A DNA stretch of 64,000 nt from Hemileia vastatrix (taxonomy: Eukaryota > Basidiomycota > Pucciniomycetes > Pucciniales > Zaghouaniaceae), in NCBI GenBank assembly GCA_030280995.1, contig JASXTE010000015.1, forward strand, positions 2,142,001 to 2,206,000. Reading direction: 5' to 3'. The notes beneath the pieces were generated by a model. It made no database searches. It was not told the DNA's origin and was given only the letters and a program-made list of their open reading frames with translations. A program made the position numbers and the translations under genes. Positions within the stretch are counted from its first letter, which is position 1. Each line of letters starts with the position of its first letter. Positions 397 to 27,517 of this stretch are shown here, piece by piece.

Positions 397-2086
397 ATCA
401 GCACAATCTTTCCCTTTGTAAGTTATAAAAGTGGTGGGTTCATTTTCTGATAAAAAGGAATTGCTACTGAAGCATTACAAAGAGCTAGACTGGCACACAT
501 GAGTGGTTCCTGAATGACACAACAACCAGGCATGTTACCAATTGTGTTTTGGTTGTCACAAATGCAAACCGTGCTTTTTTTGTGATGCCATTGTAGGGAG
601 GTGAACACCCATGGTCTGTTTACTGAGATGGGGGGAAGATCATGGGGCAATTCCTCGCTAAAATTTAGTGGTGGTGAGATAGGTGTACCCAAGAATGAGC
701 ACAAACATTGCCTTGTTTGGGTATTCAAAGAAGGGGGAGGTTTCAGATTTTGCAGTTCTTGGCTAAGAGTGGGTTGGCACTCGCAAGCTAAGTGAGGACA
801 GGATTGGAAAGGATTATTTGTAGTATCAGGGAAAATCAGCATGTGTTAAATTGCCATTGGAGAAAAAAAAATAATGGTGGAATCTATCAACACCAGGAAA
901 AAGACAGGTTTAATGTGAGGAAAGTGTGGGGCACACAATTGTTTCCGGGAAGTATACAAAATTTATTACTGCTAGTAAAAAATTAGGGACAGCTCATAAC
1001 CTATGGTAGCAGTGTCAGCACTTTGTCCGGAGTGAACTGGAGTTAGACATGTCAGCTGCACCACTGACTATATACATGTTATGTACTTAACAATCACTAA
1101 GCTATTATTATACTAAACATAACACTTATTTTTGGGTATTTCTCTTAAAAGAACCTCACATCAGATTATTTTATTATATTTTCCTCATTTTCAGCTCAAA
1201 ATATTTCAAGCTACATCATTTCTTCCTGCCCTTTGAATTCTGCCTCAAAATTAAGTAGTCAAAAAAAACTATCTCCTCTATGGCTTTGAATTATTTTATC
1301 TCTCAGAAAAACACACACAAAGATGGTGATGATCTGGTGACTAAAATGGTTGACCACATGAAGCTTGATGAAGAGGTTTTTACTTAATTATTTATTCTCC
1401 CCTTCTCATATGTCCCTCTTAGGAATATTCCTCTAATTATTCTATCTTTTTTAATTTTTTTTATTGTATAGGTGGAGGCTTCCATAAATCATGTTATAAA
1501 ATCACCTTCCAATAAAATTTTAAAGATGAACAGGGTTTTTAGTAATGCTTAAAAAGGAGCCCTACTTTAAATGCACTTTTTTCATGGTAAAATTCAAAAC
1601 TTGAAAACTCTCTTAGATTCCAAAACTTCAGAATTGGCCACTATCAAGAAGTCTCATTATGTTTCACCTCACCAAATTGATAATGAAAACTCTGTGATTT
1701 AGTTTAATTTTCTTTATTTCTCTCATATATCCATCATAAAAACCATCAATATTATCTTGTCAAGCCCCTTTCAAACAGTTATGTAATCTCATATCTAAAT
1801 AATTCAGAGTGGAGCTCAGAATTGTACAGTTCTGGATTCATTTGATGATAGTGAGCTTGATTATAAAAATTTATGGATCTTGAAATGGAGGGACTATGAC
1901 TGAAGGCTCAAAAGTTGTTAAATCTTCATTTAAAATTCTATCTTCAATTATGTGATTATAGACAATCATATTGTGCCATATAATGACACAAGTCATGACA
2001 TATTGAATATTTACTAAATGCTGCAAGCAGCATGGTTTAGGAATTATGCTTGATTTTTTTTATTTCTCACAAAGATCCATATATTA
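397..2086. other. unassigned sequence left of the first DNA transposon
   Basis: No gene can be supported here. Two short exon-like stretches occur on the plus strand: 1280-1375 (starts MALNYFISQK and ends at a possible GT donor) and 1573-1704 (44 codons starting MHFFHGKIQN), separated by AT-rich sequence with a possible acceptor near 1470. They contain stops between them and match no family I recognise. A proline- and cysteine-containing open frame on the minus strand at 423-842 has no recognisable domain. Confidence 0.3.
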
Positions 2087-2116
2087 GGGGGTATCAATGT
2101 TGACCGATCCGCAATT
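2087..2116 (+). repeat. left terminal inverted repeat of element 1
   Basis: Begins GGGGGTATCAATGTT; the GATCCGCAAT block further in recurs in inverted form at the right end. A second TTGCGGA copy lies just inside, at about 2123. Confidence 0.85.
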
Positions 2117-2436
2117 AAATTAATTGCGGAAAATAATCTGCATACCCCAATTATCTTCCGCAATTATTTTTGCTAATAATTGGGTTATTAGACACTTTAC
2201 GTGTCAATGTTCACCTCTTATCTGACATTTTTATCCTCAATATTTCATAACCACATCTTGGACAACTTTCTGGATATCCCAGCCTTCTACCTTGCTGTGC
2301 ACTTCCATTCTCATCCCATCCTGTTCATTCTATCCGCTCAGAATTTCTCCCCATTTCATCTATTTGATTCTTCTCCTTTTCATATCGCTATCTCATCTGC
2401 TTGTTTCTGCTCCTTTTCATCTTCATTTATAATAAC

Positions 2437-3833
2437 ATGCCTCGTCATCCTAGATCTTCTCAAAGGCAGCCATCACCCAGTTGTTCTTCAATTCCCACTA
2501 CTTCCTCTTTCCCCCGCTCAGCCAAGAAATCAAAGACTGTTCAATTAAAAAAAGATGAACATCTCATTCTTATCAACTGGCTGAAAACCAAATCTAACTA
2601 TGATTCTTGTTTTGGTACTGAGTATGCCACTAAAGTAGGACGGCCCCCCACATCAAAAGTTAATGGCTATCTTCTAATGGCAAATGAATTACGCAATAAG
2701 ACCAAGGGAAGGATTGATCTTTTGCCTAAACAGATGTCTGAACGCTTCAAGCATTATCGAGCAAAATACAAGAAGGCAAAGGCTCTTTCATCTTCCACTG
2801 GTTTTGGGGTTACTGACATTGATATAACTAAGGGTATAAAATCCATAGACAATAAACTTGATTCTTTATGTCCTTACTTTAAAGAGATGGATGCAATTTT
2901 TGGAGAGCGAGCCAATTTTAATCCTGTAAACATGTTGGATGGAGAAGATCCTATCTCCGAACATGATGTCGAAGCAAATCTTTTCCCATCCTCTTCCTCC
3001 ACTCAAGCCTCCCCTCATTTGAATGAGACATATCTAAATAGCTTTTCTGTAGATCCTATAGGTGATTTAACCCAACCAAATCTAACTCAGGTCTGTTTCT
3101 TTTAACTTATCAATTCTATTTTTTATTTACTTATCTTTTTCTTATTTCATAGAAGGCTGATGAACAAACCCAGGATCCTCAATCAACTGAGTCTGAAGCT
3201 AGTGACAATGATGAGGAGGAAAATGCTACGTTGAACAAAAAGAGAAGGGCTTCAACTAGTCTAAATTTCCTCTCCCAAAGAAGACGAAAAAGTGATACTT
3301 CATCACAAACACCTTTTTCTTCAATGGAACAGTTTTTAGAGAAACGTGATGCTGGTAAGTGATATCATACCTCTTATTACTTTACTCTGCTTTTCTTCTA
3401 CTTTATGATAATTTTTATTCTCACTCTAGAACAAGTGGAAATTGCTAAAGAGACTCTGAGCTTTGAAAATAAGAAATACGAGCTCTCTTTAAGGAGGGAT
3501 GACAGAGTACAAGATTTGGAAGAGAGGAAGTATGAGCTCTCCTTACGGAAGGATGATCGGATCCAAGATTTGGAGGAGAAGAAGTTTGAGCTCTCTTTAC
3601 AGAAGGATGGTAGGGCCCAAGATTTGGAGGAGAAGAAGTTTGAGTTAACTCTTAGTATTGAAAAATCCAAAAATAAGGAAAAAACACTCGAGCATCAAAA
3701 CTTAATGGAACAGATGAAGTATAAGCATGATCTCCAAGAAAGTTCTAAAAAGAAAGATTTCTTGATCGAATGCATTAAAGCAAACAAATCTGTTGAAGAA
3801 ATAGAACGTTTAATGAAATTTTTTGTTGACTAG
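2437..3833 (+). CDS. SANT/Myb-like DNA-binding protein of element 1
   Basis: Three exons, 2437-3090, 3153-3354 and 3430-3833, join in frame (GT..AG introns of 62 and 75 bp) to give 419 residues. I chose the ATG at 2437 because the homologue in element 2 starts at the same place (MP.RH). A basic, serine-rich leader is followed at about residues 45-165 by a SANT/Myb-like domain (LKKDEHLILINWL, then a RFKHYRAKYKKAK helix and YFKEMDAIFG). This is the usual second protein of PIF/Harbinger elements, which binds element ends and helps import the transposase. The last exon is a charged coiled coil made of repeats around QDLEEKKFELSL. It is the only apparently intact gene of the two transposons and is transcribed inward from the left end. 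Confidence 0.8.
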
Positions 3834-3978
3834 TTTCTTTTATTTCTTTCACACTTCATGTGTTCATATTTATTTGTACATAAATTTTACAATTATTTTC
3901 TGTATTTCTTGAAATATCGTATTTTAATGTTAAATATTCCTTTTTTAAATAAAATTTTCAAGTCTCCTTTGAAAATTT

Positions 3979-4381
3979 GACAATCCCCCACCCCTGGATT
4001 TTTTTGAAGTAAGGGGTGGGTATCACAAAAATTCTTTCATGTCATGAATCTTGAAAGTTTTATATGAAAATTTGGCTTTACTACCCCCTGCATTTTACCG
4101 GTATCCCAAAAATTCTTACATGTCAAGAATTTCACAAGTCTTATAAGAAATTTTGGCACAACCCCCCATGGATTTTATTGAAGTAAGGGACGGGTATCAC
4201 AAAAATATTTACAAGTCAAAAAAATTCTATATCTGTTTAAAAAAATTGGCAATACTCTCCCCTGCATTTTATTGAAGCAAGGGGTGGGTATCACCAAAAT
4301 TTTTCTAAGTCATCAATTTCACATGTCAGATTTGAAAATTTGGCAATACCCCCCCCTGCATTTTATTGAAGTAAGGGGTGG
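3979..4381. repeat. about 90 bp minisatellite, 4-5 units, inside element 1
   Basis: Diverged units recur, each with a C-run, a CATTTTATTGAAGYAAGGGG-like stretch, a GGTATCACMAAAA block and an ATTTGG end. It lies between the convergent 3' ends of the SANT and Tet-like genes. A two-unit version sits at the matching place in element 2 (about 12700-12890, inverted), so the repeat predates the split of the two elements. Confidence 0.8.
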
Positions 4382-4450
4382 AAGTCATCTAAATTTAATA
4401 TAATTACATAAATTATTAAATAAATATCTAATATATATCAATTTCCCTAG

Positions 4451-4590
4451 TTTAAAGTAATGACAATCCCTCAAGCCAAAATGCAGACCAAGTCGAGAAA
4501 CAAAAGTTTGGGACTTTCTACAGGTATAGGCAAGAGGAACCCCATGAAACAAATAAATGTTATCATGATTACCTGTTATACAACACAAGG
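4451..4590 (-). other. conserved 140 nt segment downstream of the Tet-like gene (element 1 copy)
   Basis: Aligned by eye with 12497-12635 in element 2, it differs at 13 positions including one gap, about 91 % identity. A catalytic-core stretch of the neighbouring Tet-like coding sequence is only about 75 % identical between the elements. The changes are not concentrated at third codon positions, and the one-base gap would break a reading frame. A short frame here (LFHGVPLAYTC) is open in element 1 but not in element 2. It may be a structured RNA, a regulatory or transposition signal, or a small exon. Confidence 0.55.
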
Positions 4591-4681
4591 TCGATGGCTC
4601 ATCACATTATTTGAGAAAATTGATATATAAAAAATTTTTATTAAAAATTTATGAAAAAATATAAAATTTTTGATGACAACT

Positions 4682-5390
4682 CTAATCCCCATACTTTTTG
4701 GATCTAGATAAAGTTTTTTTAAATTGAATAACTTTACCTTCTTTCTTTACCTTATTGATTCTTTGTATCAACTTATTACTGATTTGAAATGAGCAACCAA
4801 AATGAGTGAAATCTTGACAGGATTCCAAACCAGGAGGAGCTTTGGTCGTTTGATGATTATCCTTAGAAGAATTCCAAATAGTTTCAATGATACCATTTCC
4901 CAAACCAAAATCAATGATGCACCGGTGGTCTGGAAAATATAAACCATGTCCTTTGATTTTAGCTGGAGATGGTATTGGGTGGCCAGTTATCGGATTGATA
5001 TATGAGAATATTCCAAAAGTAAGAAAATTGGCATTATTCCTATCGATATGAATCCTATTGTGGAATCCAGAATGAGTGATAATAACATTAGAAAATAAAA
5101 GATATTCGTGGCTGATATCTTCCCATTCGGAGTCACACCAATTCGGTATTCCAACTTTGGTTGCAAGTTCATGATTTTCTTCAAATGCTTTATTACAGAG
5201 CTTGTTGAGTCAAAAAGCAAGAATAGAGTCAAAGGAAGGTAGAGTGTCCCATAAGCGAAAATCTTCATCTTTTTGAGCTTTAGTGATATTCTTGATCAAC
5301 AAATATATGCCTATATGATTGAAACGCCTAGATAATAATCATATAAGAGTTTCAGAATCCTTATCCTCTAAATATGCAATATAAAAATGT
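4682..5390 (-). pseudogene. Tet/JBP-like 2OG-Fe(II) dioxygenase, decayed copy in element 1
   Basis: Read on the minus strand, the frame ending at the stop at 4684-4682 contains ITHSGFHNRIHID (the HxD iron-binding pair), then PAKIKGHGLYFPDHRCIIDFG, then NHQTTKAPPG with the distal histidine. This matches the Tet-like 2OG-Fe(II) oxygenases that are expanded in basidiomycetes and related to TET/JBP enzymes that oxidise 5-methylcytosine or thymine. The frame is interrupted by TGA at 5212-5210 and at 5341-5339. The arginine expected after the distal histidine (FTRFG in element 2) is histidine here (FTHFG), a CGT to CAT change, so 2-oxoglutarate binding would probably be lost. The N-terminal half is not recognisable; a conserved leader exon lies upstream at about 6277-6420. 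Confidence 0.7.
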
Positions 5391-5410
5391 GAAATAAGAT
5401 AAGTGAAATT

Positions 5411-5733
5411 TGGAAAAAAGGCTCAACTTCAAAGGTCAAAATCTCAGCAACCACTGAACCTAATTCAAACCTGTTTGTGGGAAATGAAAGATATGCTTTA
5501 GTAGAATCTTCAGTTAAAGGACATGTGATTTAAATAAACCTAACCCTAATTTGTTACATAAAAAAAATGAAATAAAAATTTAAATTGGGAAAAAAAAGGC
5601 TCAACTTTAACAGTCAATATCTCAGCAACCACTGAATCAAATTCAAATCTGTTTGCAGGAAATGAAAGGTAGCCTTCAGGAGAATCTTCAGTAAAAAGAA
5701 CATTAGATTTGAATAAACCTAACCCTAATTCCG
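5411..5733. repeat. two-copy direct repeat, about 150 bp units
   Basis: The blocks 5411-5560 and 5587-5733 share AAAGGCTCAACTT, ATCTCAGCAACCACTGAA, GGAAATGAAAG and AAATAAACCTAACCCTAATT with scattered changes. The duplication sits upstream of the decayed Tet-like gene and is absent from the matching place in element 2. Confidence 0.8.
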
Positions 5734-6276
5734 AGTCTGATTTTCAAACTTTTACAAAAACTTGAAAAGTGGTAATGAAGATGAGATCAAAAGGAGTTTT
5801 ATAAGTTCACTGTTATCCAGATAAGAGTCATACATATATTTAAGTATGAAGTTTCCATAAAAGGAATGAGATATCATATAGGCATGAAAAAAAGGAGATG
5901 AAACTTACCTTGATTGAAAAGTAGGAAAAATAGAGTGAGAAAGATTGATGTTGGAATTGTGGGGAAATTGAATATGGAGTAAGTGAAATGCATAAAGAAT
6001 GTGCAATGTATGTGTTTCAATGAAATGGAGCCAAAAAAAAGTGAAATAAGGGAAAGGGGGGATAATGACAATGCCAAGGAGGGATGAAGAGTAGGGTGAT
6101 GGAGCTAAAAAATAAAGTAAAGAGGGAGAGAAAAAAAAAGGTTAATTATACCATTGAAATCCAAAACAACCACTTACAAAAAAAATTTAGATAAAAAAAA
6201 TAAAATAAACAGAAAAAAACAAAAAAAATTATAATTAGTAATCAAAAAATCAAAAAAAAAGAATAAAATGACTTAC

Positions 6277-6420
6277 CTGGAGAGATGAGATGACAAAATG
6301 AATGAAACCAAATTGTTTGAGGGATGTTGGAGGAGAATAGGAAAAGGATATGAGGGATGAATGAAAAAAAAAATCACTGACAAAATATGCAATTTCAGAA
6401 AATATGCGATTTCATGTTGA
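6277..6420 (-). other. conserved non-coding leader exon of the Tet-like gene (element 1)
   Basis: On the minus strand this segment contains ATGAAATCGCATATTTT and ends CATCTCTCCAG before GTAAGTCATTTTA, a consensus 5' splice site. The same segment and splice site occur in element 2 at about 9926-10057. The ATG frame stops after six codons in element 1, so conservation is not coding. It lies between the divergent transposase and Tet-like genes in position, and points toward the Tet-like gene. Confidence 0.55.
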
Positions 6421-6575
6421 GCTGGTGAAAGAAAACCAATGAGCCATCCAAAAAAAAGATATTCACCGTAAATTCAAAAAAAAAAATGAATATGCAACAA
6501 AACAAAATACAAAACCAAGTGATTAAAGTACACAAAGAGGACATTTGGAAAGTATGAAAACATAAAAATTAAAAA

Positions 6576-7836
6576 TTAAAAGGGTGAAGAGAAATGTTGG
6601 AGAGTAATTGGCATTATAATGGGGCGTATGCCGGTTGATTGAATGATTTGTGAATAAAGGGAGGGGAGTGCCAGTGGTGGTTCAGGATCATCTTCTTCAT
6701 AAAGATCATTCCACTCATCCTTTAAATCAGCTAGAATATTGTGGAGTATTACGCAAGTCAAGATCCAATGATTTGCAGTTTTGATCTTCAATTTTTTTTT
6801 GAAATTGGATTCTGAGCTCCCAAAGACTAGAAAATTGTCCCTTTAAAATACCTATAGCATGTTCAATTTGTACTCTTGATTGTGCAAGGTGATAATTAAA
6901 TTTAGTTTTGGGGTCATTTTCTGAATTTGCACCACGGAAAGCAGGTATAATGTACTTTCCACTTGCATATGCTGAGTCTGCAAGCAGGTACTGAGATTCA
7001 TCAAAGTATGAGTCAGGGGATTGAGAAATCCTCATTCTTTGGAAGACGGAAGAGTCATGACATGATCCAGGGCAGCCACTGTGAAAAGCAATAAATTTTT
7101 TATTGACATTGCATACAAGTTGAACAGCAATAGAGTATCTAGAAAGAAGATAAAAAAATAGATTGTGAAAGATGAGAACTTGGAGGAGATTTTGAAGAAA
7201 CCTTTTTTTGCGATCAAAATAATGGTTGCCATCATGAGCAGGCTTTTGACTCAAAGGGATGGTTGTGCCATCAACAAAACCTATACAGCCAGGGAAACCT
7301 TCAGCTTGCATTACTTGAGAGGATTCAAGTCGCTGTTCTGGAGTTGGCCAAGCAAGAGTTTGAGACTTGAGGGAAAGGATAGCAATCATACAGCGCTTGG
7401 TGTATAATATCACGGTACCATATCCTATGTTAAAGAGATTATCCAAACGTCTTACGGCAGCACCATTTCCATTTGAGCCAAAGCGACATAGAGCAACAGC
7501 AAGTTGGATGGCTGGATTACGCTGTTTGTTATGAGAATTGTTATGGAAGATAGGATGATCGGAGATGAGTTGATAAAGTTTGAAGAAAGAATCGGGAGAA
7601 GTTCTAAAAAGTTGTGTGAAGTTTAAATGAGGAATGTTGAGAATGGAGGCCAGATCATATCGGGGATCATGATAAAGATTTGGCCCCCTGGTGATGATGT
7701 AACGCTTTTTGGAAAGAAAACACATATAAGCTAAAGCATCTTCCAAATCAGAGTCAGATTTATAGTAAAGAACTAAAAGAAAAGTGATAGCATTCATTGT
7801 TGAGTGAAGTAGCTTCCTAGTAGAGAGGTGTTTCAT
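6576..7836 (-). pseudogene. PIF/Harbinger DDE transposase of element 1, one frameshift
   Basis: Exons 7836-7202 and 7138-6576 are separated by a 63 bp intron whose length is a multiple of three; the element 2 gene has an intron at the same codon. The catalytic triad is visible as D in GFVDGTTIPLSQKP, D in LLADSAYASGKY and E in IEHAIGILKG, the DDE superfamily-4 pattern of Harbinger transposases. I start at the ATG at 7836 (MKHLSTRK); upstream in-frame sequence has no ATG. The C-terminal helix (NHWILTCVILHNILADLKDE) is reached only by a one-base shift in an A9 run near 6792. All catalytic residues precede the shift. It faces away from the right end of the element. Confidence 0.85.
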
Positions 7837-8100
7837 TGTTGCTGGTGGAAGGGTTATGTGATGAGGGAAGTGGGAATTCACCGCCAAATGTGCAGTTGGG
7901 GTGTGTAGATAGAAAAAAAACTTAAGTGTTTGCCACCAAAATTAAGTAGCATAGAGTGAGGAAAGACTTAAGGATGGCATCAGCAATTATAAGTCATGTG
8001 ACTTTCTTAAAAATCCATCATGGATGAGATGAGTTTGGGATCAGGAATTAGGAATGGAAATTGGGGTATAAGAGGCGGGATAATGCATTATCGTGGATTT

Positions 8101-8132
8101 CTTATCCACTAGCCCCAGGGCTAGTGGATAAG
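8101..8132. repeat. perfect 15 bp hairpin near the right end of element 1
   Basis: CTTATCCACTAGCCC and its exact reverse complement are separated by only CA. It lies about 85 bp inside the right terminus, next to a CCGCAATTAAT subterminal motif. A related but imperfect CACTAGCCCCAATACTGGTGG occurs near the left end of element 2. It may be a transposase- or SANT-binding structure. Confidence 0.85.
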
Positions 8133-8185
8133 AATCTTCCGCAATTAATAATGTCTGATCCCGGGAAAAAAAATTCCTGATCCCT

Positions 8186-8215
8186 GATTGCGGATCCCTG
8201 AACATTGATACCTCC
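8186..8215 (-). repeat. right terminal inverted repeat of element 1
   Basis: Ends AACATTGATACCTCC, the inverse of the left terminus with one change (GGAGG for GGGGG). Only 5 bp (TATTA) separate it from element 2. Confidence 0.85.
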
Positions 8216-8220
8216 TATTA

Positions 8221-8300
8221 GGGGGTGTCAGTTCTGGCAAATCCGCACTTACAAATCCGCACTTAAATAAGTGTGGATTTCCAAAACACACTAGCCCCAA
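8221..8300 (+). repeat. left terminal inverted repeat and subterminal repeats of element 2
   Basis: GGGGGTGTCAGTTCTGGCAA is followed by two direct CAAATCCGCACTTA copies and then an inverted AAGTGTGGATTT. The right end mirrors this at 14745-14796. Confidence 0.85.
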
Positions 8301-8505
8301 TACTGGTGGATTTCAAAATGAAATAAGTCACTTATTTCACTCAAATCCGCACTTTCACAACCAAAAGTGCTTATTTCACCATCAAGTCCCATTTCACTGA
8401 TTTGTCAGCATCATCCCATTCATACGCAGAACTCCACAGCATAACACTTCATAACTCAAAAAATTGCACATCATTTACATTTTCATATCATATCATATAA
8501 GAGTC

Positions 8506-9795
8506 ATGCCTTCCTCACTTTCAAATCGTGATAAATTACATAAAGCAATGACTTTCATGGCTCTTGAACTGCTCTTGGACTCTGATTGCGATTCTGATTC
8601 TGATCTAGAAGAAGATTTTGTCTTTTTATCAAAAATGGCCACGAAACATTAACTTCTTCCCAGAAAGCCTCAAGTACTTCATACCCCCAAGTACACCATG
8701 CAAACACTTCTTAACCTATCTATACCCAGTTTTAGACAGCTGTTCAGGACTTCTCAGGAATTTTTCCTTAAATTTCTTGAGCTTATTCAGGATCATCCCA
8801 TATTTCACAATAATTCTCAAAAAGAACAACGACATCCTTCAATTCAATTGGCCATCACACTATGTCGTTTGGGCTCAAATGGTAATGGAGCTGCTTTGAA
8901 ACGTTTAGAAAATGTCTTTGATTTAGGGTATGGTTCAATTAACACTTATACCAAACGATGTATCACTGCCATCAACTCCTTGGAATCTCAACTTCTCACC
9001 TGGCCAACAAAAGAAGAGCAACTTGAATCATCTCAGGTTATGCAAGCAGAGGGCTTCCCAGGATGTATTGGTTTTGTTGATGGTACTACTATTCCTTTGA
9101 GCCAGAAACCTGCTCAAGGTGGAAACAATTAATTTGACCGTAAACAGAGGTAGATTATTTTTAACTCTTTTCATTCTCTTTGAAACTAACACAAACAAAT
9201 ATATCTTCTTTATAGATATTCAATTTCTGTTCAGCTTATATGTGACATAAACAAAAAATTTATATCATTCTTCGCTGGCTATCCTGGCTCATGTCATGAC
9301 TCCTATGTCTTCCAAAGAATTCAAATTTCAAATGAACCTGAAAAATTCTTTGATGAAGATCAATATCTTCTTGCAGATTCTGCTTATGTGAATGGAAAGT
9401 ATGTACTTCCTGCTTTTTGGGGAGCAGCTTCAGAAGAAAGTCAAAATGCCAAGTTCAACAATCATTTGGCAAAGTCAAGAGTCCATATTGAACATTCTAT
9501 TGGAATCTTGAAAGGCTGTTTTTCTAGCTTAAGGGAATTAAGAAGTCCTCTTAGAAATAAATCTGAAATGGAGGCGGTGATAAACTGGATTCTGTGTTGC
9601 ACTATACTTCATAACCTACTTGCTGACCTCAAAGATCAATGTTTAGAGCTGTATGAAGATGAACAAGTTGATTCACCTCCGACTATATCCAACACTTCTA
9701 TTTCTCAATCAACTAGTATAAGGGCAAAAATTCTTCCATCAACACTCCAACATTTTTCAACACAATTTAAATTTTTTTTCATTCTCTTCAAATGA
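8506..9795 (+). pseudogene. PIF/Harbinger DDE transposase of element 2, two nonsense codons
   Basis: Exons 8506-9149 and 9216-9795 (intron GTAGATT..TTTATAG, 66 bp) join in frame to a 407-codon gene starting MPSSLSNRDK. The triad is present: D in GFVDGTTIPLSQKP, D in LLADSAYVNGKY, E in IEHSIGILKG. Two in-frame TAA codons interrupt it, at 8650-8652 and 9130-9132; at the second, element 1 has tyrosine (NHYFD). There is no frameshift. The gene begins about 285 bp inside the left terminus, so its promoter lies in the terminal region, as for the transposase of element 1. Confidence 0.85.
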
Positions 9796-9925
9796 TCTAT
9801 TTGCATGTGTTATTCACTGAGAATGGTAAAATTTTTTGCATATTTTTTTGGTTTTTGAATTTGCTGTTAAAGTCTTATTTTTTTTATCTCTCTGTGTTTT
9901 CTTTCATCAACTCAACATGAAATCG

Positions 9926-10057
9926 CATATTTTCAGCAAACGCATATTTTTTCAGTCACTCTCTTTTTTTTCTTCACTCATATCCGTTTTCTCCTCTCTT
10001 CCTACATCACTCAAACAATTTCACTTATATTTCTTTTTTCTCAACTCATCTCTCCAG
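9926..10057 (+). other. conserved leader exon of the Tet-like gene (element 2)
   Basis: Matches 6277-6420 of element 1, including ATGAAATCGCATATTTT and the splice donor CTCTCCAG/GTAAGTCATTTTA (GT at 10058-10059). If used, the intron would run to just before the coding start at 11222 and would contain the G/C-rich inverted repeat. Confidence 0.5.
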
Positions 10058-10239
10058 GTAAGTCATTTTATCTTTTTTACTTGATTTTTTGCTAATTTCT
10101 TTTTTTTTTGGTTTTTTGTTTTTGTGTTTTTTTTTGTTTTTTTTTGTAAGTGTTTTTTTTTAAATTTATAGGTAAAATTAACCTTTTTTTCTCTCTCTCT
10201 CTCTCTGTCTCCCTCTTTTCTCTCATTTATCCTATTCTT

Positions 10240-11010
10240 TATCCCCCCTTGGCCTGGGCTTTTTCCCACCTTTACCCTCTCCTTGGAATGGATACTTCCC
10301 CCTTTTCCCCCCTTTGGCTGCCTTATTCCCCCCTCCTTGGCTCACTCTAACCTCCCTTTTCTCCCTCTTTGGTCTCATCTCTCCCTTTCTCCCCCTTGTT
10401 GGTGTCCTCATTTCCTCACCTCATTCCTCTCTAACCCCCCTCCAAATCCCCTGAATCCCCCCTCCAAATCCCCTTAAAACTCTCCCAATCACCCCCTCCA
10501 ACCCCCCTTCCAAACCTCCCTTCAATCTGTTCCTAACCCTCCCTCCTATCCCCCTCAAACCCCCCCAATCCCCCCCCTCAAAACCCCCCTACCCCCCCCT
10601 TAAATGTCCCTTAACAATTCGTTAGCAAATTGTTAAGTGACATTGGGGGGGGGTAGGGGGGTTTTGAGGGGGGGATTGGGGGGGTTTGGAGGGGGTTTGG
10701 AGGGGGGATAGGAGGGGGAGGTTAGGGGGGTTTTGGGGGGTTTGGAGGGGGGGGATATAGGTGGATTGAAGGGGGCGTTGGGGGGGGGGGGGTTGGAGGG
10801 GGTTTGGGGGGGATTGAAGGGGGGTTTGGAGGGGGGTTTGGAGGGGGGTTTGGAGGGTGATTTGGAGGGGGATCAGGGCAGATTGAAGGCAGGTTTCAAA
10901 GGGGGTTTGGAGGGATTTAAAAGGGGATGTGAATAGGTTGGAGGGGGGGTTTGTACAAGGGTTTTGGCGAGGTGGGAGAGAGGTTTGGGGCAGGGAATTT
11001 AGGGGGATGG
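10240..11010. repeat. large polypyrimidine/polypurine inverted repeat, G-quadruplex prone
   Basis: The plus strand is almost pure C/T from about 10240 to 10610 and switches to G-rich from about 10640 to 11010. At the switch, TTAACAATT and AAATTGTTAA face each other across a few bases, and the arms (CCCCCC/TCAAAACCCCCC and the inverse) pair over long stretches. The right arm is a degenerate minisatellite of TTTGGAGGGGG units. Glycine-rich open frames in it are artefacts of the repeat. It sits in the presumed leader intron of the Tet-like gene; no equivalent is present in element 1. Confidence 0.85.
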
Positions 11011-11221
11011 GGAAGTGATAAAAAAAAATTCCCAGTTTTTGAATTTTTTTTTTTGATTTTTTTAATTTTAGAGAAAAATATTCAACAAGTTCAAGTGAAA
11101 TAAAAAAAATTCTTATTAGTCTTTTGAGGATTTTAATTTTTTTAATTTAAATTAAGTGAGTTTTTTTTAATGTATAATTTTGGGTGTTTGAAAATTAACA
11201 AATTTTTAAGTAGAAAAATAC

Positions 11222-12408
11222 ATGTCTTTAACTTCAGATTCACCACTTACCTCACTCTCATCTTCTTTAACTTCATTATCATCTTCAAATTCAACTTCTT
11301 TTCAATCATCATCTAAAACATTGACAAAAAATGAACAGTATCAAAATAAAAGAAATTTTAAAAAAAATATTCACTTGGATCAAATATTTGGCCATATTTC
11401 AAAAATTAAATACTATAAAACTAAAGTTGAAAAAAACAATATCCAAAAACGTTACCTGAAAATATACATTATTTAACTGAAACTGGAGGTGATGAAGTTG
11501 AAGCTGTTATTAATAATACTTTCAAACCTCAATTTATTTACGAAAACCATTCTTTTAATGGTTTAAAAGATGAATCATTTAATCAACTCTGCAATCTCAT
11601 CATAACACTTTATCAAATGGCTTTGGTTCGCTTACCTTTAAGGAATAAGAATTTGTTGGGTGGAATCATGATTGGTATGGGATGGAGACCAGGATTTGAT
11701 AAAGGTTTTTCTCTTGGTATGTTTAAAAATTTTTCTGGATTTTTTAATATCATTATACTGAATTTAAATCAAATAGGCATATATTCTTTACTCAGATCTT
11801 TATCTAAAGCTGAATTAGATAAAGATTTTTGAAAATGGAATACTTTACCTTCATTTAATTCATTTCTTGCTCTTCAACTTAAAAAACTCTTCAATAAAGC
11901 TTTTGAAAAAAATCATGAAGTTGCTAAAAGACTTGTAATACCAAATTGGTGCGACTCTGAATGGGAAGATATTAGCAGTGATTATCTAATGTTTTCAAAT
12001 GTTATAATCACTCATTCTGGATTTCATAACCAAATTCACACTGACTCAAATGATGCCAATTACCTCACTTATAGAATTTTCACATATATTAATCCTATCA
12101 CTGGACAACCTATTACGTCACCTGCAAAAATTAAAGGACATGGATTATATTTCCCGGATCATAGATGTATAATTGATTTTGGATTAGGAAATGGAATCAT
12201 CAAAACAGTTTGGAATTCTTCTTACGATAATCACCAAACCACAAAGGATCCTCCAGGTTTTGAATCTTGTCAAGACTTCACGCGTTTTGGTTTCTCTTTC
12301 CAGATCAGTCAAAAGTTAATCCAACGAATAAACAAGTTAAAAAAAGAAGAAAAAGGTAATAAATTTAAAAATTCTTTAGGTAGATCTAAAAAGTATGGGG
12401 ATTTGTAG
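11222..12408 (+). pseudogene. Tet/JBP-like 2OG-Fe(II) dioxygenase of element 2, nearly complete
   Basis: About 395 codons from MSLTSDSPLTS to the stop at 12406-12408. A Ser/Thr-rich leader is followed by LLGGIMIGMGWRPGFD (conserved in basidiomycete Tet-like oxygenases), then ITHSGFHNQIHTD (HxD iron ligands), GHGLYFPDHRCIIDFG, NHQTTKDPPG (distal histidine) and DFTRFGFSFQIS (arginine for 2-oxoglutarate). All expected catalytic residues are therefore present. Two lesions break it: one base missing in an A-run near 11435, and TGA at 11830-11832 where element 1 reads arginine (CGC). Members of this family are known from basidiomycetes as expanded, transposon-linked genes related to animal TET and kinetoplastid JBP. 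Placement between SANT and transposase genes, inside the inverted repeats, shows it is cargo of the element. The family call is from motifs only. Confidence 0.75.
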
Positions 12409-12496
12409 AGTCACCAAATATTTAATATTCTTCCATAAATTTTTAATAAATAAATATGATATTTCAATTTATGAAATTAAAGTAATGGGCCAATGA

Positions 12497-12635
12497 CCTT
12501 GTGTTGTATAAAAGGTAAGCATGATAACATTAATTTATTTCATGGGGTTCCTCTAGCCTATACCTGTGGAAAGTCCCAAACCTAGTTTCTAGACTTGATC
12601 TGCATTTTGGCATGAGGAATTGTCATTACTTTAAA
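12497..12635 (+). other. conserved 140 nt segment downstream of the Tet-like gene (element 2 copy)
   Basis: Counterpart of 4451-4590, about 91 % identical, beginning CCTTGTGTTGTATAAAAGG and ending TGTCATTACTTTAAA. It begins 88 bp after the stop codon of the Tet-like gene, on the same strand. The flanking sequence is far more diverged. Confidence 0.55.
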
Positions 12636-12699
12636 AGTAGTAAATTTGACATATCTTATTTATATATTAATTAATTTATGTAATTATATTAAATTTTGA

Positions 12700-12890
12700 T
12701 GACTTTCACCCTTTACTTCAATAAAATGCAGGGGAGGGTATTGCCAATTTTTTAAATCTGACATGTGAAATTGATGACTTAGAAAAATTTGGTGGTACCC
12801 ACCCCTTGTTTCAATAAAATGCAGGGGAGGGCATTGCCAATTTTTTAAATCTGACATGTGAAATTGATGACTTAGAAAAATTTAGATAAT
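12700..12890. repeat. about 90 bp minisatellite, two units, inside element 2
   Basis: Two near-identical units contain CAATAAAATGCAGGGGAGGG and GACATGTGAAATTGATGACT. They are the inverted counterpart of the 4-5 unit array at 3979-4381. Confidence 0.8.
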
Positions 12891-13128
12891 CCAACTTATT
12901 GACTTGAAAGTAAAGATAGAAAATTTTTATTATATTTTCAAATTTTTGTCAAAATAAAAGTATAAGCAAACTTATTGACTTGAATGTAAAGATAGAAAAA
13001 ATGTGTGATATTTTCAAAAATTTGTCAAAAATAACGTACTATATTCAAGACCTTTTATAAGTCAGCATATAAGAAAATATTACCAAAAAGAAATCAGACA
13101 AAATTAAATTAACTAGAAAAACAATTTA

Positions 13129-14441
13129 TCAATTGAAAAGGTCAAGTAATTTTTTAATGTCCTCATAAGATTGGCCATTTTTTACACATTCCATAATGAA
13201 ATCTTTTTTTTAAACTCTTTTGTTTTTCCAATTCACAAGTAGCCATTTCTCTTTGAAATTGATAGTCATTTACTCTTTCCATCTGCTCTGCCTCAAATTT
13301 TATTTCTTCCAAGTCTAAGGCTTGCTGATCTTTCCTTAGAATATGATCAAACTTCATCTTCTCAAAGTCAAGGGAATTTTTTGCAATAGTTGATTTTGCT
13401 GAGAAAATTAAATTGAAATAAATAAATAAATGAGTTAATGATTAAGATATATAGTAAATGAATCTTACTTATATCTTTTTTTTCAAAATAATCTTCAAGG
13501 GAGCCAAATGAGCTTGTTAAAGAATTACCACGTTTTAATAGATGGTTCAAGTTCATTGAAGTTGAGGCTTGAGGCTTTAGTTTGGAGTTTGAATAAGAAG
13601 CTTCAGGAAGTTCATCAAAAGCAGCTTCTAAAGTGGGATTCACATTTCCAGAATTGAGATTATTTAATGGAGATTGAGTTTGAGTAGGAGGAGACTAGAA
13701 AGAAAGAGAAGTTCAGAGAATAATTAAAGAAAAAACAAAAAGTAAACATACATTTAAATTTTGGGCCTCTGAGGATTCAGATCTGCTGCGATATAATTGT
13801 TCTGCTTGATAGTTGGGATCATCTTCAGCTGAACTATAGTTAGAAGGTGGAGGGGATTGATCCTGTTGATGTACAGGTATTTCAGGAGGATTAATTGATG
13901 GTTGAGATCCAGAGGGTATATTCTTAGTAGTATCGTGTAGAAACCAAGGGTTTACATCAACTCAGGAGCCAAAAAGATTATCCATTTCCTCATAGAAAGT
14001 ACACATGACATTGAAATTTTCGGAAACAGTAGTAATTCCAATCTCCAAATCATCATTGTCAATACCAAAGCCAGTTTCATTTGAAGCATGATGAGCCTTT
14101 TTATATTTTGATTGGTAACTCTTAAATCTCTCCTTCATTTGTTTAAGATTGATATTGATTCTCCCCCTTGTTTTCTTCCTTACTTCATTGGCCATCAATA
14201 AGTAGCCATTAACCTTTGAAGAAGGTGGACGTCTAATACGAGTGGACTTTTCACATCCAAAACATGCTTCAAAATTTGATTTTATTTTAAGGAAGTTGAT
14301 AATGATGAGATAATCATCCTTTTTAAGCTGACCTGAACCTGACTTTGATTTTTCAGGTGTAGGGCTTGCTTTATGAGGAGACTTTTGTGATGAAGCAGAT
14401 TTTTGAGTTACCTTTTGAGATTTGGAATGTCTGGGAGGCAT
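13129..14441 (-). pseudogene. SANT/Myb-like DNA-binding protein of element 2, broken
   Basis: Three exons, 14441-13752, 13694-13469 and 13398-13129, mirror the exon structure in element 1. The N-terminus reads MPPRHSKSQK, then the SANT-like domain (LKKDDYLIIINFLK, RFKSYQSKYKKAH, FYEEMDNLFG) and a C-terminal coiled coil. TGA at 13964-13962 replaces an arginine codon that is CGA in element 1. A one-base indel in an A8 run near 13210 separates the last helix (KKKDFIMECV) from the frame. The gene is transcribed inward from the right end of the element. Confidence 0.75.
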
Positions 14442-14744
14442 TATGAAACTGGCACATAACAAGAAAAAAGATTAAGAGGTAGAAGAAATAAGTAAAAAAG
14501 AATGTAAACATGCCTGGTCAAAATGTTGAAAATGTCAGGAAGGGGTGTGTGCCGAGGATTGATGGGTAGGTAGCAAGGAAGGTCAGTGTGTCACATGTTA
14601 CAGGGATGGGGTAAGAAAGGAAGGGATGTTTTGTGGCCAACATGTGGTTGTGAAAAAAAACAGGAAAAAGTGCTGATTTGAGGTCATAACTGACACCCAT
14701 TTTTGAAATAAGTGACTTTTTTGCAAAATTTAAGTGCTTATTTG

Positions 14745-14796
14745 GTTTGAAATCCGCACTTAAGTTAAGTGTGGATTTGCCAGAACTGACACCCCC
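14745..14796 (-). repeat. right terminal inverted repeat of element 2
   Basis: Reads AAATCCGCACTTAAGTTAAG, then GTGGATTTGCCAGAACTGAC and ACCCCC, the inverse of the left end. Followed by TA (14797-14798). Confidence 0.85.
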
Positions 14797-16984: not shown

Positions 16985-19900
16985 TTACTGGGGTCGCACA
17001 ACGACCCGGTCAGAAATATTTGGGGTTCCCAAATCAATGAAAATGTCACTTTGTTCCGCTCGATATAGTCCTTGTTTCAAACGTTTTTGATCAAGATGAT
17101 GGCCAATGAAACCAATGCTTCGTCCAAGCACGAAGAGAGCATTGAGAGATCCAATCTATAATTGAAATAAATCAAAATTACATTCATCAAGAGCTTTAAC
17201 CTTGAGAGTAGGATTGCGAAAATTGCTTACCTGCATATATTCGTCTGCTTCCTCACGAGTAAACGCTCCAGAATTCCTCATCAAGTCACAGAAACATACA
17301 GCAATGCACCCATCTACATTGAGAATCAATGTATCTTTTTTAGAAGATGTCACATCTTCCACAGCTAGCGCATAATCAAGCATTTCACAGCTGGGAAAAT
17401 TTTCGCGCACAAATTGTTTTACTAGTTCGACTCGCATGTCAGGATTTGATTTAGATTTTATTTTGTGACCAATTCCGGGAATCAATTTGTTTGCCTTCCT
17501 CATTGAATCGACAAATTCGCGGGGAGTGAGACCAGTATCTTTTGCTTTAGAAAACTCTCGCGCTGCGCCATCAAGAGCGCCTCCGAATCTATCGCCAATA
17601 GTAAGCAAGCCAGCAACCAGCGAGCTAACCAAATCCTTTCCAGCTCTTGTGGTAATGACAGTCGTCATTGCTCCGGACACAGCTGGCCCGTGATCTGCAG
17701 TTAACTGAAGACACATTTCCAAGAACTTGCACGCATATGGGGGCAGACGGCGTTTGAACCTGTGAAAAAGTTATGTCATCAATAATGAAAAAAGTAGCCA
17801 TGATAAGATGATAAACAATAAAAAATGTTACCATAACAAAGATATAACGCCACCAACACCAATATCTTCTTTGAAAACATCAGTTATAGGCATACCGGCA
17901 TACAAAAGCTCCGCGCCACGTTCATCAGATATAGTTGAGATAAACGCTGCTGGTTTACGGACCATGCCAAGTTCTTGTGCCCATTTATAATCAACGGGAA
18001 TGTTGGGAGGGTCACGCTCAGGCATTGGAGTGATAGTTCCTTTTGCCACAAGGTCTTCGTAGACCGCTTGTAAACAAGAAGGAAGATCTTCAAATGTATC
18101 CGGAACAATAAATCCACTTGCCTTCATCGCCTTGTTTTTGGCCTCTGCAGTTTCTAAATCTGAGTTTGCCATGGAACCAGCATGCCCAAATTGCACTTCA
18201 GTGGTGAACATTTTAGCACATGTTCCGATGGCCCAAGCAACTATGGGCTTGGTAATTTTACCGCTTTTTACAGCCTCAATCACCCTATACTCTTCCACGC
18301 CACCAACTTCTCCAAGGAGAACTAACATTTTGCAATTAGGATCGGCTTCATATCGTAACATGTGGTCAATGAAGGTAGTACCAGGATATCGGTCACCACC
18401 AATAGCAATGCCTTCATAAGTACCATTAGTAGTAAGAGAAAGGATGTTGTTCAACTCATTTGACATTCCACCAGATTTGGAAACATAAGCAACGGATCCA
18501 GGCCGGTATAGTTTCGAAGATATTATATTATCCATCATGCCGCCAGTGTTACCAATCCTAAAACAACCTGGTTTGATACCTCCAACAGTAGCAGGCCCAA
18601 TGATTATGACATTCCTCTTTTTAGCCAAGTGCAATATTTCTCGGGCGTGACGCTCGGGCACACCCTCAGCAATCAGAGCAATTGATCGTATTTGAGGGAG
18701 CTCCAAAGCCTCCAACGTAGATAAATAAACCGAGCGAGATGAAGCAAAGTTAACCAAAGTGTCGGCTTCAGGGTGCTTTTTAACAGCTTCCTGAATCGTG
18801 GTATAAACAGGCAATAAAGTTTCTTTAGTGCCCCAGTAAAATTTTTGAACATGGTGTCCTCCAAAGGGATATATCATCGCTGCCACGGAAGGTTTTATTC
18901 GTCCACAAGCATAATCGAAATCCAGCATTCCTTGGATAGCGCGTGGCTGCAGCCCATACACCAAACCTCTGGTTGTTTCATCAAATGGACGAAACCATGG
19001 CCTTTGAGCTGGAGCATCTTGCTCGAATGAAACTATCCCATGGTCTTCTCGACTTCCTGGTACTACTGTCGCCACAGCAGTGTTTGGTGTTGGAGAAACC
19101 GAAGCAGATGCCCCATTAATGGAAGTTTGGGAAGGCTTAACGTGTAAACCGTTGGTAGTGAGGCTTTTTGAGGTCGATTTTGTAATCCCCAGAGCCAGAG
19201 GAACGATCGACGAGATGTGAGTGTCAGGCTGCGTGATCAATTAAAATATAATGTAAGTGATAAGACGAATGCAAAATGGCAAAAATAACCTACCCCGAAA
19301 ACCTGAATTTCCAACCCAAGTGATTCTCCAATGAGGCGCATTTTTTTGAGACCTTCTTGATAATTAGGACCACCTCGGCGAACAAAGATGCGGACTTTGT
19401 GTCGTTGAAGGCTTTCTTTAAACTCCTTGAGGGCATCTATTATGCCGCCAAAGGTTGCTGCAACGTTTGTAAAGTTGGCAATACCCCCACCAATGATAAG
19501 TACCTTCCCCTCAGGATGCGGATTCCCACGAGTCATGAGATCAAGGATAGTTTTGGCGTATTCATAAGTTTGGTTTTTGGTAGGAGCTCCGGAGTATTCA
19601 CCGTAATTAGCCAATTCAGAGGCATATCCGTGCGCCGCGATAGCATCACTAGAGAAAAATTGGCAATGCACAATGTTAGTATGAAAGGTGGTTTGATAGA
19701 AATATAGGTTAACTAACGAATAAACTACTGAGGCGCCACCACCTGCAACCATTGTCCAAACACGTCCTCCTGCATTCAGAACAGTTAGCTTCAACGAGGC
19801 TCCAGTGCTGGCATCCAATTTTTGAATGTACGCTTCTTCTTTAGTTAAATCACGGCCAAAGGGAGCTGGAAATACCATTGGTGGTCCTCGATCAGTGAAA

Positions 19901-21186
19901 ACTTTAGAGGCAGGAGCCTTACCATTGGCTTGGGAGGTAATGTCACGCGCAATAGCCCATTTGGATCCGGACAAATAATCAGCAGTCTGGTCCAATTTGG
20001 CGGCCATATCAAGGAACGCTATCGATGGCTTCCCTTCAGAATCTTCCATGCAAACAAGAGGATTTATTTCGAGATATGTATAATGCAAATCCACATAAAC
20101 GCTGTACAATCTTGAAATAAAATTGACCAACGCATCTTGACGGTGAGACGGAACAGCACTGAGCAAGCTTTTTTTCATTTCATCGCGGGAAGGAAGGTCA
20201 CCATCAACCGCTACAACAATTTTGGCAGCTTTAGCATCGACATCACCAATATCAACCCCTCCTTCATGAGTAAACAAGATCACGTCACCCTCCCGGATGG
20301 AATTGATACAGATGTAATATTCGCTTTCAAAGAATGGATGAAGAAATTAGCAACTATTCTGCTCAGATATCTGACAAGTGTATAGTGAGTACAAATTGAT
20401 TACAGTAAAGCTTACGTGTCTGGGGGATGAGGAGCAAATGGTTCAACAATAAAACTACTTAGAGTCCCTACCACGCCTTCGACGTTTACGGGCTTTCCAG
20501 CTCGCTCAAGAATCCAAGCCTTGGCCTCATCCCATGTTTTATTGAGACCAAGAAGCCCAGCCTTCCCTCGTCGTTTGATGAGCTGGTCAGGCTTTACCAC
20601 CAATTTGTGAGTTGAAACCCAGGAAGGCAATTTGTTATCAGGAGTAATAGTGTTTGTTTCGGAATCCCATAAAATCTATCACAACAGAAAAAAAAATTGA
20701 ATGGATTAAGTTGAGCGGCTAAAGAGACCATCTATTATTTACGTATACTAAGCAGAAGCAAGAAATTTGTAGCAAAGTTATGTGACAGAAAGATTCATAA
20801 AATCGATTTTTGAAATTGGTGAATATATTGCTGACGTGATGATGAAAAAACTAGCTAGTGTAAAGTGTAGAATGAAGAAATACGAAGGAGAAGACAGGAT
20901 GTAAAAATGAATCATATCTTACCTGCGCAACTTTCACCTCAGGAGAAACAAACTGGTCACTAGCAGGGCAAGATTTGCCAAATTGCGGAGCTCGAGCGAG
21001 CCAATATCCTACGAGGAGTTTCGCGTCATACTCTCGAATGGCTTGAGTTCAAAATCAAAGAAAGTAAGAATGACATAAACAAATAGGATTCAGATCATGA
21101 TATTTCATATAGTTAGCCACAGCAAAGTAAAAATGTCAAATAATCAATCAATAGAATAAGAAAAATAGTATACCTTTGGCAGACAT
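16985..21186 (-). CDS. ACLY: ATP-citrate lyase, single-chain form (ATP citrate synthase)
   Basis: Makes cytosolic acetyl-CoA and oxaloacetate from citrate, CoA and ATP, feeding lipid and sterol synthesis and protein acetylation. Eight exons: 21186-21174, 21041-20923, 20675-20416, 20323-19718, 19648-19294, 19228-17832, 17759-17231, 17155-16985. All use GT..AG introns and sum to 3450 bases, 1149 residues plus stop, close to animal ACLY (about 1100). In order: N-terminal ATP-grasp/CoA-ligase half ([44 protein letters not shown]), a Ser/Thr-rich linker at about residues 465-515, the CoA-ligase alpha part ([15 protein letters not shown], phosphohistidine in FGHAGSMAN near residue 800), and the citrate-synthase-like end ([51 protein letters not shown]). 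The C-terminal 25 residues, ending VVVRPQ, differ from the animal tail. One fused chain is typical of basidiomycetes and animals; ascomycetes use two genes. No lesion is seen. Confidence 0.97.
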
Positions 21187-22709: not shown

Positions 22710-22912
22710 GGGGGTATCAAATATGGCAAGTATATCATTAGAAAATCCTTTTCGTTTGCTTGAAATTAATCATTAATAAAGTCTTGATTACAATCAAGAC
22801 TATTGGCTCTAAGAATCCTTCTTTTGTTGATTAAACATGGATTTGATCCTTATATTTTGGTGGTAAGTTATGAATTTAACGTATTGGTGTATTTGTCATA
22901 ACTGATACCCCC
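22710..22912. mobile_element. 203 bp MITE with the same termini as the two DNA transposons
   Basis: Begins GGGGGTATCAAATATGGCAA and ends with the inverse of GGGGGTATCAGTTATGACAA, an inverted repeat of about 23 bp with four changes. Flanked by TA on both sides (22708-22709, 22913-22914). A central palindrome, AGTCTTGATT/AATCAAGACT, is separated by two bases. It has no coding capacity, and its left end most resembles that of element 2. It lies about 1.5 kb upstream of the ATP-citrate lyase start. Confidence 0.8.
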
Positions 22913-26273: not shown

Positions 26274-26356
26274 CCGTAGTTCTCATTCTTTGCACTACTA
26301 CCTCCTTTTAGGTGTTTCTAAAATTTTAAATGGCACCTGTTTAACGCACTCCTCCT

Positions 26357-27517
26357 ATGGGCGCTGCTACTAGAGCTCGAGCTAGAGGCAGGCCAACAGC
26401 CACAAGGTCTGTTTCTCGCACTCACTCTTTGGAACCACTCGACCTTAGGAAACGGCAACATTCAGTTCAATCTGTAGAAGACATTCCACAAGATTTTGAG
26501 GATTCTAGTGATGAAGAAGAAGGAGAGGATACAATGCATGAGGCACCATCTGCCCCTGCCAATCACCCTTCTGGCCAATCCTCAGAACTGGGACCATCTA
26601 ACTCTCTGGAGGATTTCATGAGACTTTTCATGAAAACTCTTTCAAATCCAACGTCTTCAGAGGGATCTAAGTTCAAAGCTCCTTCTATGAAATCTCCTGA
26701 CAAATTCGACGGAGATCACCCCGACAGATTGCGACCCTTCTTGCAAACCTGCAAGCTACTGTTCCATAATGACCCTCGAACCTTTAACAGCGACCGATCA
26801 AAGGTTGTTTACGCTTCTTCATTCCTAGCCGGGAAAGCAGCAAGATGGTTCGAACCTTATCTACTCATGCTTTCTTCGACAGAAACCCACTTACTCATCA
26901 ATAATTGGGAAAAATTTGAGGACCAACTTTTTACGTTGTTTGGGGACCCTAATGAAACGGACAACGCGGAAATTGAACTTGATTTTCTTCGCATGAGTGA
27001 TAATGGTAAAGCTTCTGAATATATCTCGAACTTCAGAGCACTTCAAACTCGAGTAGGATGGAATGATGCTGCCCTTAAGTATCATTTCAAGAAAGGACTT
27101 CCTTTGAGGATTCTAGATCAATTAAATCTTCATGGTCAGAAGATGACTACTTTAACGGACTTAATGGATCGAACCCTCGAACTTGACGGCGTTTATCAAG
27201 GACGACTTCAACATCATCGATATGCCAACAAATCTCAAGGCCTAAATTTTAAATCGGGACCTTCTTCACACCCACGACCAAATCAATCCTCCTCGACTCA
27301 ATCCAAACCCAATAAGGGAAAGGATAAACCTCGACCAAAAGGCTCGACCCCAGGCGATATCAGCAAAGTACTGGATCCTAAAGGGGAACTTAAAGAAGCT
27401 GAGAGGAAGAGAAAAGCAGATAATGGGTTATGTATGTATTGTGGGGGTAAGCACAAGTTGGAAGACTGTGTAAAGTTGAAGGAAAGAGAAGGTACTAGTT
27501 CGAAGTCAAAAAACTAG
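26357..27517 (+). CDS. gag: gag of gamma
   Basis: 386 residues from ATG at 26357, intact. An acidic N-terminal region (residues 35-60) is followed by the capsid-type gag domain (KSPDKFDGDHPDRLRPFLQTC near 113, AARWFEPYL, FEDQLFTLFGDPNE, ALQTRVGWNDAALKYHFKKG). A basic, serine-rich linker and one zinc knuckle (CMYCGGKHKLEDC) near residue 357 close the protein. It forms the particle that packages element RNA. The stop TAG at 27515-27517 directly follows the heptamer A AAA AAC. Confidence 0.9.
   Translation: MGAATRARARGRPTATRSVSRTHSLEPLDLRKRQHSVQSVEDIPQDFEDSSDEEEGEDTMHEAPSAPANHPSGQSSELGPSNSLEDFMRLFMKTLSNPTSSEGSKFKAPSMKSPDKFDGDHPDRLRPFLQTCKLLFHNDPRTFNSDRSKVVYASSFLAGKAARWFEPYLLMLSSTETHLLINNWEKFEDQLFTLFGDPNETDNAEIELDFLRMSDNGKASEYISNFRALQTRVGWNDAALKYHFKKGLPLRILDQLNLHGQKMTTLTDLMDRTLELDGVYQGRLQHHRYANKSQGLNFKSGPSSHPRPNQSSSTQSKPNKGKDKPRPKGSTPGDISKVLDPKGELKEAERKRKADNGLCMYCGGKHKLEDCVKLKEREGTSSKSKN

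Follow-up and report, generated by a model that had tools for sequence, protein, structure and literature searches.

Introduction

In December 2025, Kojima described fifteen TET-carrying families of PIF/Harbinger transposons, found in Puccinia and Austropuccinia and flanked by TA duplications, and named them PHISTA (Biology 14:1741; PMC12730594). According to the parts of that paper on which we draw here and below, TET-carrying PHISTA elements have been described from six rust species, none of their third proteins contains a Myb/SANT domain, and the oxygenases are proposed to remove silencing marks, which would allow escape from silencing by methylation. Here we present a computational analysis of a 64,000-nucleotide stretch of the rust Hemileia vastatrix (contig JASXTE010000015.1, positions 2,142,001 to 2,206,000; the window), in which an earlier note on the sequence had pointed out two transposon-like elements, hereafter E1 and E2. 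Since TET-carrying PHISTA elements had already been published, E1 and E2 are not new in kind; set against the published description, with the families not compared singly, they are new members of PHISTA.

We consider it probable that E1 and E2 represent two related PHISTA families whose DNA would be methylated by the host at CpG, whose oxygenase would oxidize 5-methylcytosine (5mC), and whose members could be supplied with this enzyme in trans. To the published description, our analysis adds a CpG footprint, a truncated yet successful subfamily, and an oxygenase swap within PHISTA. A transposon that carries an enzyme for erasing methylation allows the contest between mobile DNA and epigenetic silencing to be examined directly. 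In this instance young copies are numerous within a single genome, both complete and truncated enzymes occur among them, CpG decay can be measured and an exchange of the enzyme gene is documented, so that cis protection, trans supply and cassette exchange become testable from sequence together with read-level methylation.

Results

E1 and E2 belong to mobile transposon families

The earlier note had described two diverged elements bounded by GGGGGTRTCA inverted repeats, and this was borne out. The motif is exact at 2087, at 8221 and, on the minus strand, at 14787-14796, while the right end of E1 (8206-8215, minus strand) has one mismatch and reads GGAGGTATCA. With up to one mismatch allowed, the motif occurs 16 times in the window versus 4.83 times expected, and 0 of 100 shuffled sequences reached 16. 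E1 and E2 adjoin in opposite orientation, with their transposase ends face to face across a five-base spacer, TATTA. As the note had also stated, the three genes follow the same relative order in both; E2 is inverted relative to E1. Oxygenase and transposase are matched by profiles in both elements, and a third gene is present in each (Table 1). The DDE_Tnp_4 matches identify the transposases of E1 and E2 as of the PIF/Harbinger (PHIS) type. The first piece of the E2 transposase is 64% identical to the E1 protein, whose best-scoring named proteins are from Puccinia (51%), with the best Austropuccinia protein at 45%.

The 747.6-Mb assembly that contains the window (791 contigs) was searched. 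With the E1 oxygenase DNA as query, 40 of 3652 first-look candidates were scored, the window's own copy included, and all 40 were at least 98% identical. Eight E1 copies were fetched whole (L031-L038, which are the same places as L002, L003, L005, L007, L009, L014, L015 and L012). In their main aligned parts they share 96.6-98.7% identity with the E1 of the window, all eight end in TTGATACCCCC followed by TA, seven start with TA plus GGGGGTATCAATGTTGACCG, and their flanks differ from one another. L031 is without 1.47 kb, mostly of the third gene. E1 and E2 thus belong to real, mobile transposon families, with near-identical copies at different TA sites. Oxygenase copies lying mostly outside such ends, which the note had named as evidence against its proposal, were not what we saw among these eight copies.

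TA flanks E1, E2 and a 203-bp element of the window on both sides, and it may belong to the ends themselves, as no empty site was seen. AWTAWT describes the flanks at nine sites (those of seven copies, of E1 and of E2), which read, to the left and right of the element, ATTA/TATT in five, AATA/TAAT in three and AATA/TATT in one. A 3-bp target-site duplication (TSD), as in Nuwa elements, was not found in the seven whole copies in which both ends were read: the left triplets are TTA or ATA versus TAT or TAA on the right, with agreement in 0 of 7. As a separate observation, L036 (1-260) carries an inverted copy of the left end in place of the E1 left end, a pattern as from aberrant transposition or recombination.

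The oxygenase is TET-like and is truncated throughout the E1 subfamily

A profile search against the Tet-like 2OG-Fe(II) oxygenase family, which the note had proposed as a check, placed the open pieces of the window far above the PF20515 cut-off of 27 bits (86.8 and 87.0 bits). Together with DDE_Tnp_4 in both elements, this bears out the claim that an element of the PIF/Harbinger type carries a gene for a TET/JBP-like oxygenase. Both oxygenase genes of the window are interrupted. L071, a relative of the E2 family (the same place as L060), has an unbroken frame of 352 amino acids that covers PF20515 positions 8-211 of 211 (116.5 bits, E 2.2e-33). In the genome, 150 PF20515 hits were scored of 10,849 first-look candidates, and all 150 exceeded the cut-off. 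By hand count, 35 of these extend over the profile from position 6-8 to 210-211 and contain no stop; another 36 start at position 47-50, mostly in a frame of 218 amino acids. E1-type frames of 218 amino acids likewise seem to start near position 47-50, and judging from frame length in the table rows, the 36 hits look like E1.

In all 30 E1 copies compared (the window's included), the longest open oxygenase frame has 161-218 amino acids, with 218 in 12 of them. The first 110 of the 133 residues of the E2 N-terminal piece were matched in 0 of these 30 copies, while each of the loci L039-L071 (33 loci at 31 places) matches at least 88 of the 110. Three of the latter, L058, L059 and L069, are E1 relatives with most or all of the N-terminal part. 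As this part is missing from 30 of 30 E1 copies, the E1 subfamily multiplied while encoding no complete enzyme itself.

The note had also read an HxD...H...R dioxygenase motif, of which the iron ligands stood and the arginine did not. The distal His motif is readable in 30/30 E1 copies and HxD in 23/30; E2 has both. The Arg position is occupied by His in all 29 readable E1 copies, in L039 and in the four E2-family frames printed that far, and by Arg only in the E2 of the window, which makes this Arg a private state. We considered whether the E1 enzyme is dead through an Arg to His change at CQDFT[R]FG, and rejected this since His is also present in L039 and the printed E2-family frames. A phmmer search with the TET piece gave 38 candidates, none at E <= 0.001, and sequence searches of the PDB led nowhere.

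E1 copies decay specifically at CpG

The C to T spectrum was determined in 25 E1 copies, five others (L002, L008, L015, L017 and L025) being set aside for their greater divergence in the alignment. C to T changes were found at 56 of 70 CpG sites versus 94 of 1154 other C sites. Per site and per copy, this corresponds to 0.0966 at CpG versus about 0.004 (0.0029-0.0051) elsewhere, a difference of about 24-fold. With all 30 copies retained, the counts were 60/68 CpG sites and 304/1155 other C sites. The CpG excess was 9.5-fold in seven E2-type copies (on 22 CpG sites only) and 10.2-fold in 16 copies of cluster A, a further group introduced below (on 4 CpG sites only). Decay of this CpG-specific kind is what CpG methylation, or a mutator resembling repeat-induced point mutation (RIP), leaves behind. 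CG methylation of young transposons has been published for a rust, according to the part of that report used here (PMC8444563).

The CpG observed/expected ratio is 0.36 in E1 and 0.20 in E2, and 0.80 in a non-repetitive gene of the window (17156-20346). This is a putative ATP-citrate lyase gene. Elsewhere in the window, a retroelement-like region (51308-57655) has a ratio of 0.12 versus 0.69 in a Gypsy-like element at 26345-31164; these regions may be old versus young, or differently treated.

Selection on the oxygenase between families

Between E2-type and E1 oxygenases, the ratio of nonsynonymous to synonymous substitution rates (dN/dS) was roughly 0.06-0.08 in five of six comparisons (128-175 codons); in the sixth, dS was undefined. 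For the window's own E1 and E2 genes it was about 0.08, with a bootstrap range of 0.12-0.24 for the corresponding ratio of proportions of differences (pN/pS). Ratios were 0.20-0.26 against the A and B oxygenases and 0.21-0.26 for E2 type against L062, and the transposases of E1 and E2 gave 0.14-0.16. The note's suggestion that a gene kept across element divergence is under selection is in line with these values, which argue for long-term purifying selection on the oxygenase between the E1 and E2 types. Its further argument, that the gene was retained independently in two families, did not hold up. E1 and E2 have homologous transposases, third genes and oxygenases, and TET and transposase are similarly saturated in synonymous divergence, so that common descent is the simplest reading.

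Conflicting gene trees point to an oxygenase swap

Among the best 30 TET loci, 17 form cluster A, which represents a third family. One of these, L047, lies inside L070, which gives its surroundings and whose left end reads TTA followed by GGGGGTATCAATGTTCAGGGATCC. The third gene of E1 is 86% identical to that of L070 (dS 0.28-0.55) and 81-83% identical to that of other A loci with at least 190 bases, versus 57-63% between E1 and E2. The oxygenase gives the opposite picture, with 78% identity between E1 and E2 and 68% between E1 and L070 (dS 1.48). In trees of 15 distinct loci, E1 types group with E2 types by oxygenase (support 0.995) and with A by third gene (support 1.0). A single history shared by all parts of the elements was rejected because these two trees conflict, and from this comparison of sequences we conclude that the oxygenase gene was swapped between PHISTA families.

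In a global alignment of E1 and L070, identity per 100 bases is 0.72-0.96 at 2087-4386 and 0.60-0.73 at 4387-5286, which holds the oxygenase and its tail; the values of 0.71-0.82 at 5287-6086 come without a local match and are hence uninformative. The 3' boundary of the swap is the end of the tandem array, and the opposite one falls somewhere from about 5190 to 6075. Since oxygenase and transposase are similar in synonymous divergence between E1 and E2, the replacement more likely took place on the A lineage, the direction being unproven. The A transposase, partly fetched, is 81% identical to E1 over 173 bases.

The best 30 PF20515 loci, from the same genome search, were also viewed with 1.5-kb flanks. 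The 93-bp array or the leader that flanks TET in E1 and E2 accompanies the oxygenase at 29 of the 30, the third gene is seen at 14 and the transposase at none. A bolder and quite tentative proposal is as follows. TET may be a cassette that is exchangeable through minisatellite recombination while each family keeps its own third gene and ends, and truncated subfamilies such as E1 may spread on enzyme supplied in trans; this would be a producer-cheater system of anti-silencing within one genome.

Several observations concern the repeats and the tail themselves. The arrays include GGTATCAC-like units, which in E1 come close to the terminal motif, and the tandem repeat is predicted to form a hairpin with z -5.6 in E1 and -2.0 in E2, strong in one repeat; units or hairpins are possibly internal binding sites. 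The G-rich/C-rich minisatellite 5' of TET is much expanded in L039 (about 1560-3030). When E1 and E2 are compared, 60-base windows of the non-coding tail 3' of TET (4259-4681 in E1, 12409-12840 in E2) show 80-97% identity, above most of the coding part, which may reflect constraint or conversion. A structured RNA in this tail was not adopted as an explanation (z-scores 0.27 and -2.6), and Rfam gave no match at gathering score in 2000-23500.

The third gene has a weak Myb/SANT resemblance

The note had called the third gene SANT-like. A resemblance to Myb_DNA-bind_4 was found in the third proteins of E1, E2, L039 and L071, which represent two families, at 17-19 bits (E 0.0014-0.0077) against a cut-off of 27 bits; the Austropuccinia relative P0001 and two shorter L070 pieces gave no such match. 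The label thus survives as a weak likeness that scores under the threshold, in a group for which Kojima states that the domain is absent, in the part of the paper used here (PMC12730594), and a Myb/SANT-like third protein remains putative and unproven. One of the grounds on which Kojima sets PHISTA apart from Nuwa is affected by this question. The E2 third protein has a sole match, Austropuccinia psidii O181_127113 (47% over half of the query).

Features of the window

Table 1. Coordinates of the elements, their genes and their repeats in the window.
Feature	Position	Strand	Evidence
E1, PHISTA-type element	2087..8215	- (transposase strand)	TA both sides; 8 other whole copies
E1 left terminal repeat, GGGGGTATCAATGTTG	2087..2102	+	0 mismatches
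E1 right terminal repeat, GGAGGTATCAATGTTC	8200..8215	-	2 mismatches
E1 third gene, open pieces, putative introns between; repeated charged C-terminal part	2437..3833	+	Myb_DNA-bind_4 18.6 bits
E1 tandem array, period about 93-94, 3' side of TET	3987..4395	.	Boundary of oxygenase swap
E1 Tet-like oxygenase, N-terminal part missing, stop within this copy	4682..5340	-	PF20515 E 2.7e-24 on 4682-5209, profile 85-211
E1 transposase	6727..7941	-	DDE_Tnp_4 E 8.5e-22
E2, PHISTA-type element	8221..14796	+	TA both sides; relatives L039 and L071
E2 left terminal repeat, GGGGGTGTCAGTTCTGG	8221..8251	+	31 nt, 96.8% to other end
E2 right terminal repeat, GGGGGTGTCAGTTCTGG	14766..14796	-	31 nt, 96.8% to other end
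E2 transposase, two open pieces	8653..9795	+	DDE_Tnp_4 E 5.4e-26 on 9190-9795
E2 C-rich/G-rich minisatellite, 5' side of TET	10415..10990	.	Repeat search
E2 Tet-like oxygenase, disrupted here but unbroken in some relatives	11222..12408	+	PF20515 E 2.3e-24 on 11833-12408
E2 93-bp tandem array, 3' side of TET	12691..12883	.	Repeat search
E2 third gene, weak Myb/SANT-like	13163..14441	-	Myb_DNA-bind_4 17 bits
Non-autonomous element, 203 bp, GGGGGTATCA ends, TA flanks	22710..22912	.	End search and flank reading

One end of the 203-bp element is 86% like the E2 end over 28 nucleotides, and its flanks are AATA/TAAA. The TATTA spacer recurs between PHISTA neighbours at a second place: E1 is followed by E2 in the window (8206-8230), and an E2-type end by E1 in L035 (1-140).

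Discussion

An anti-silencing role for the oxygenase is likely in our view. The host would methylate CpG in these elements, the element oxygenase would oxidize 5mC on element DNA and so keep promoter and ends active, and the enzyme would act in trans, so that a subfamily with a truncated enzyme, such as E1, could spread at the expense of complete ones. A number of results weigh against this reading. The E1 subfamily multiplied although its oxygenase is truncated, and the variants among E1 copies look neutral. CpG decay is strong in the elements despite their oxygenase gene, so that protection by it is not complete, and this decay was measured in TET-carrying families alone. Within the E2 family, dN/dS of the oxygenase is only 0.41-0.73, and between families dS is saturated, so that the ratios are rough. 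In addition, no 2OG-binding residue was identified in the oxygenase, and the AlphaFold models were too poor for use (predicted local distance difference test scores of 41, for the third protein, and 34).

The success of the truncated E1 and the neutral look of its variants would also be expected if the oxygenase were a passenger without a role in transposition. We think this unlikely, as the low dN/dS between E1 and E2 types, the values of 0.20-0.26 against the A and B oxygenases, and the 35 of 150 scored PF20515 hits that are full-length and unbroken all speak against it. That the oxygenase is a small mobile unit inserted into PHISTA rather than an integral gene seems highly improbable, even with an exchange between families and an adjoining 93-bp array that recurs at 24 of the 30 TET loci. 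No terminal repeats of its own or duplicated site were seen around it, although no dedicated search was made; its position and direction among the other genes are the same in E1, E2 and L071 and, to the extent that it was fetched, in L070; it is present in 8 of 8 whole E1 copies; and Kojima argues against such a unit in the part of the paper used here (PMC12730594).

Two further alternatives concern the chemistry. The CpG decay might be the work of a RIP-like mutator and not of plain 5mC deamination, an account that we consider possible but doubtful. TCG hypermutation in Pucciniomycotina is cited by Kojima (PMC12730594, in part), and 28 of 32 TCG sites were mutated in E1, yet ACG (13/18), CCG (11/16) and GCG (4/4) were mutated as well, which makes the TCG preference modest. 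The enzyme might also act on something besides 5mC silencing, for example by installing oxidized T, N6-methyladenine or glyceryl-5mC that would hide or mark the element. Several such reactions are known among TET/JBP relatives according to the same source, and nearly all copies seen have His at the Arg position, but the CpG-specific decay points to 5mC as the likely target locally, and we hold this alternative to be rather unlikely.

Comparison with known systems

The anti-silencing reading of E1 and E2 stays close to PHISTA as described in the parts of Kojima's paper used here (PMC12730594), with which the two elements share a PIF/Harbinger DDE transposase, TA flanks, a third protein, a TET/JBP oxygenase, a rust host and the proposed role. 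They differ in a third protein with sub-threshold Myb/SANT matches, and E1 differs as a subfamily that multiplied with a truncated oxygenase. The swap reported here occurred within PHISTA and has one boundary at a tandem array, whereas the swap ends that Kojima compared are reported to bear no signature. KDZ elements (Kyakuja, Dileera and Zisupton) are likewise fungal DNA transposons with TET/JBP genes; their transposase belongs to another superfamily, and TSDs are 8 bp for Zisupton and the Dileera element Zisupton-1_PGr versus TA here (PMC12730594). Nuwa, a PIF/Harbinger lineage, combines a transposase with a Myb/SANT protein, which the putative Myb/SANT-like third protein here would parallel, but is described there with 3-bp TSDs and two proteins only.

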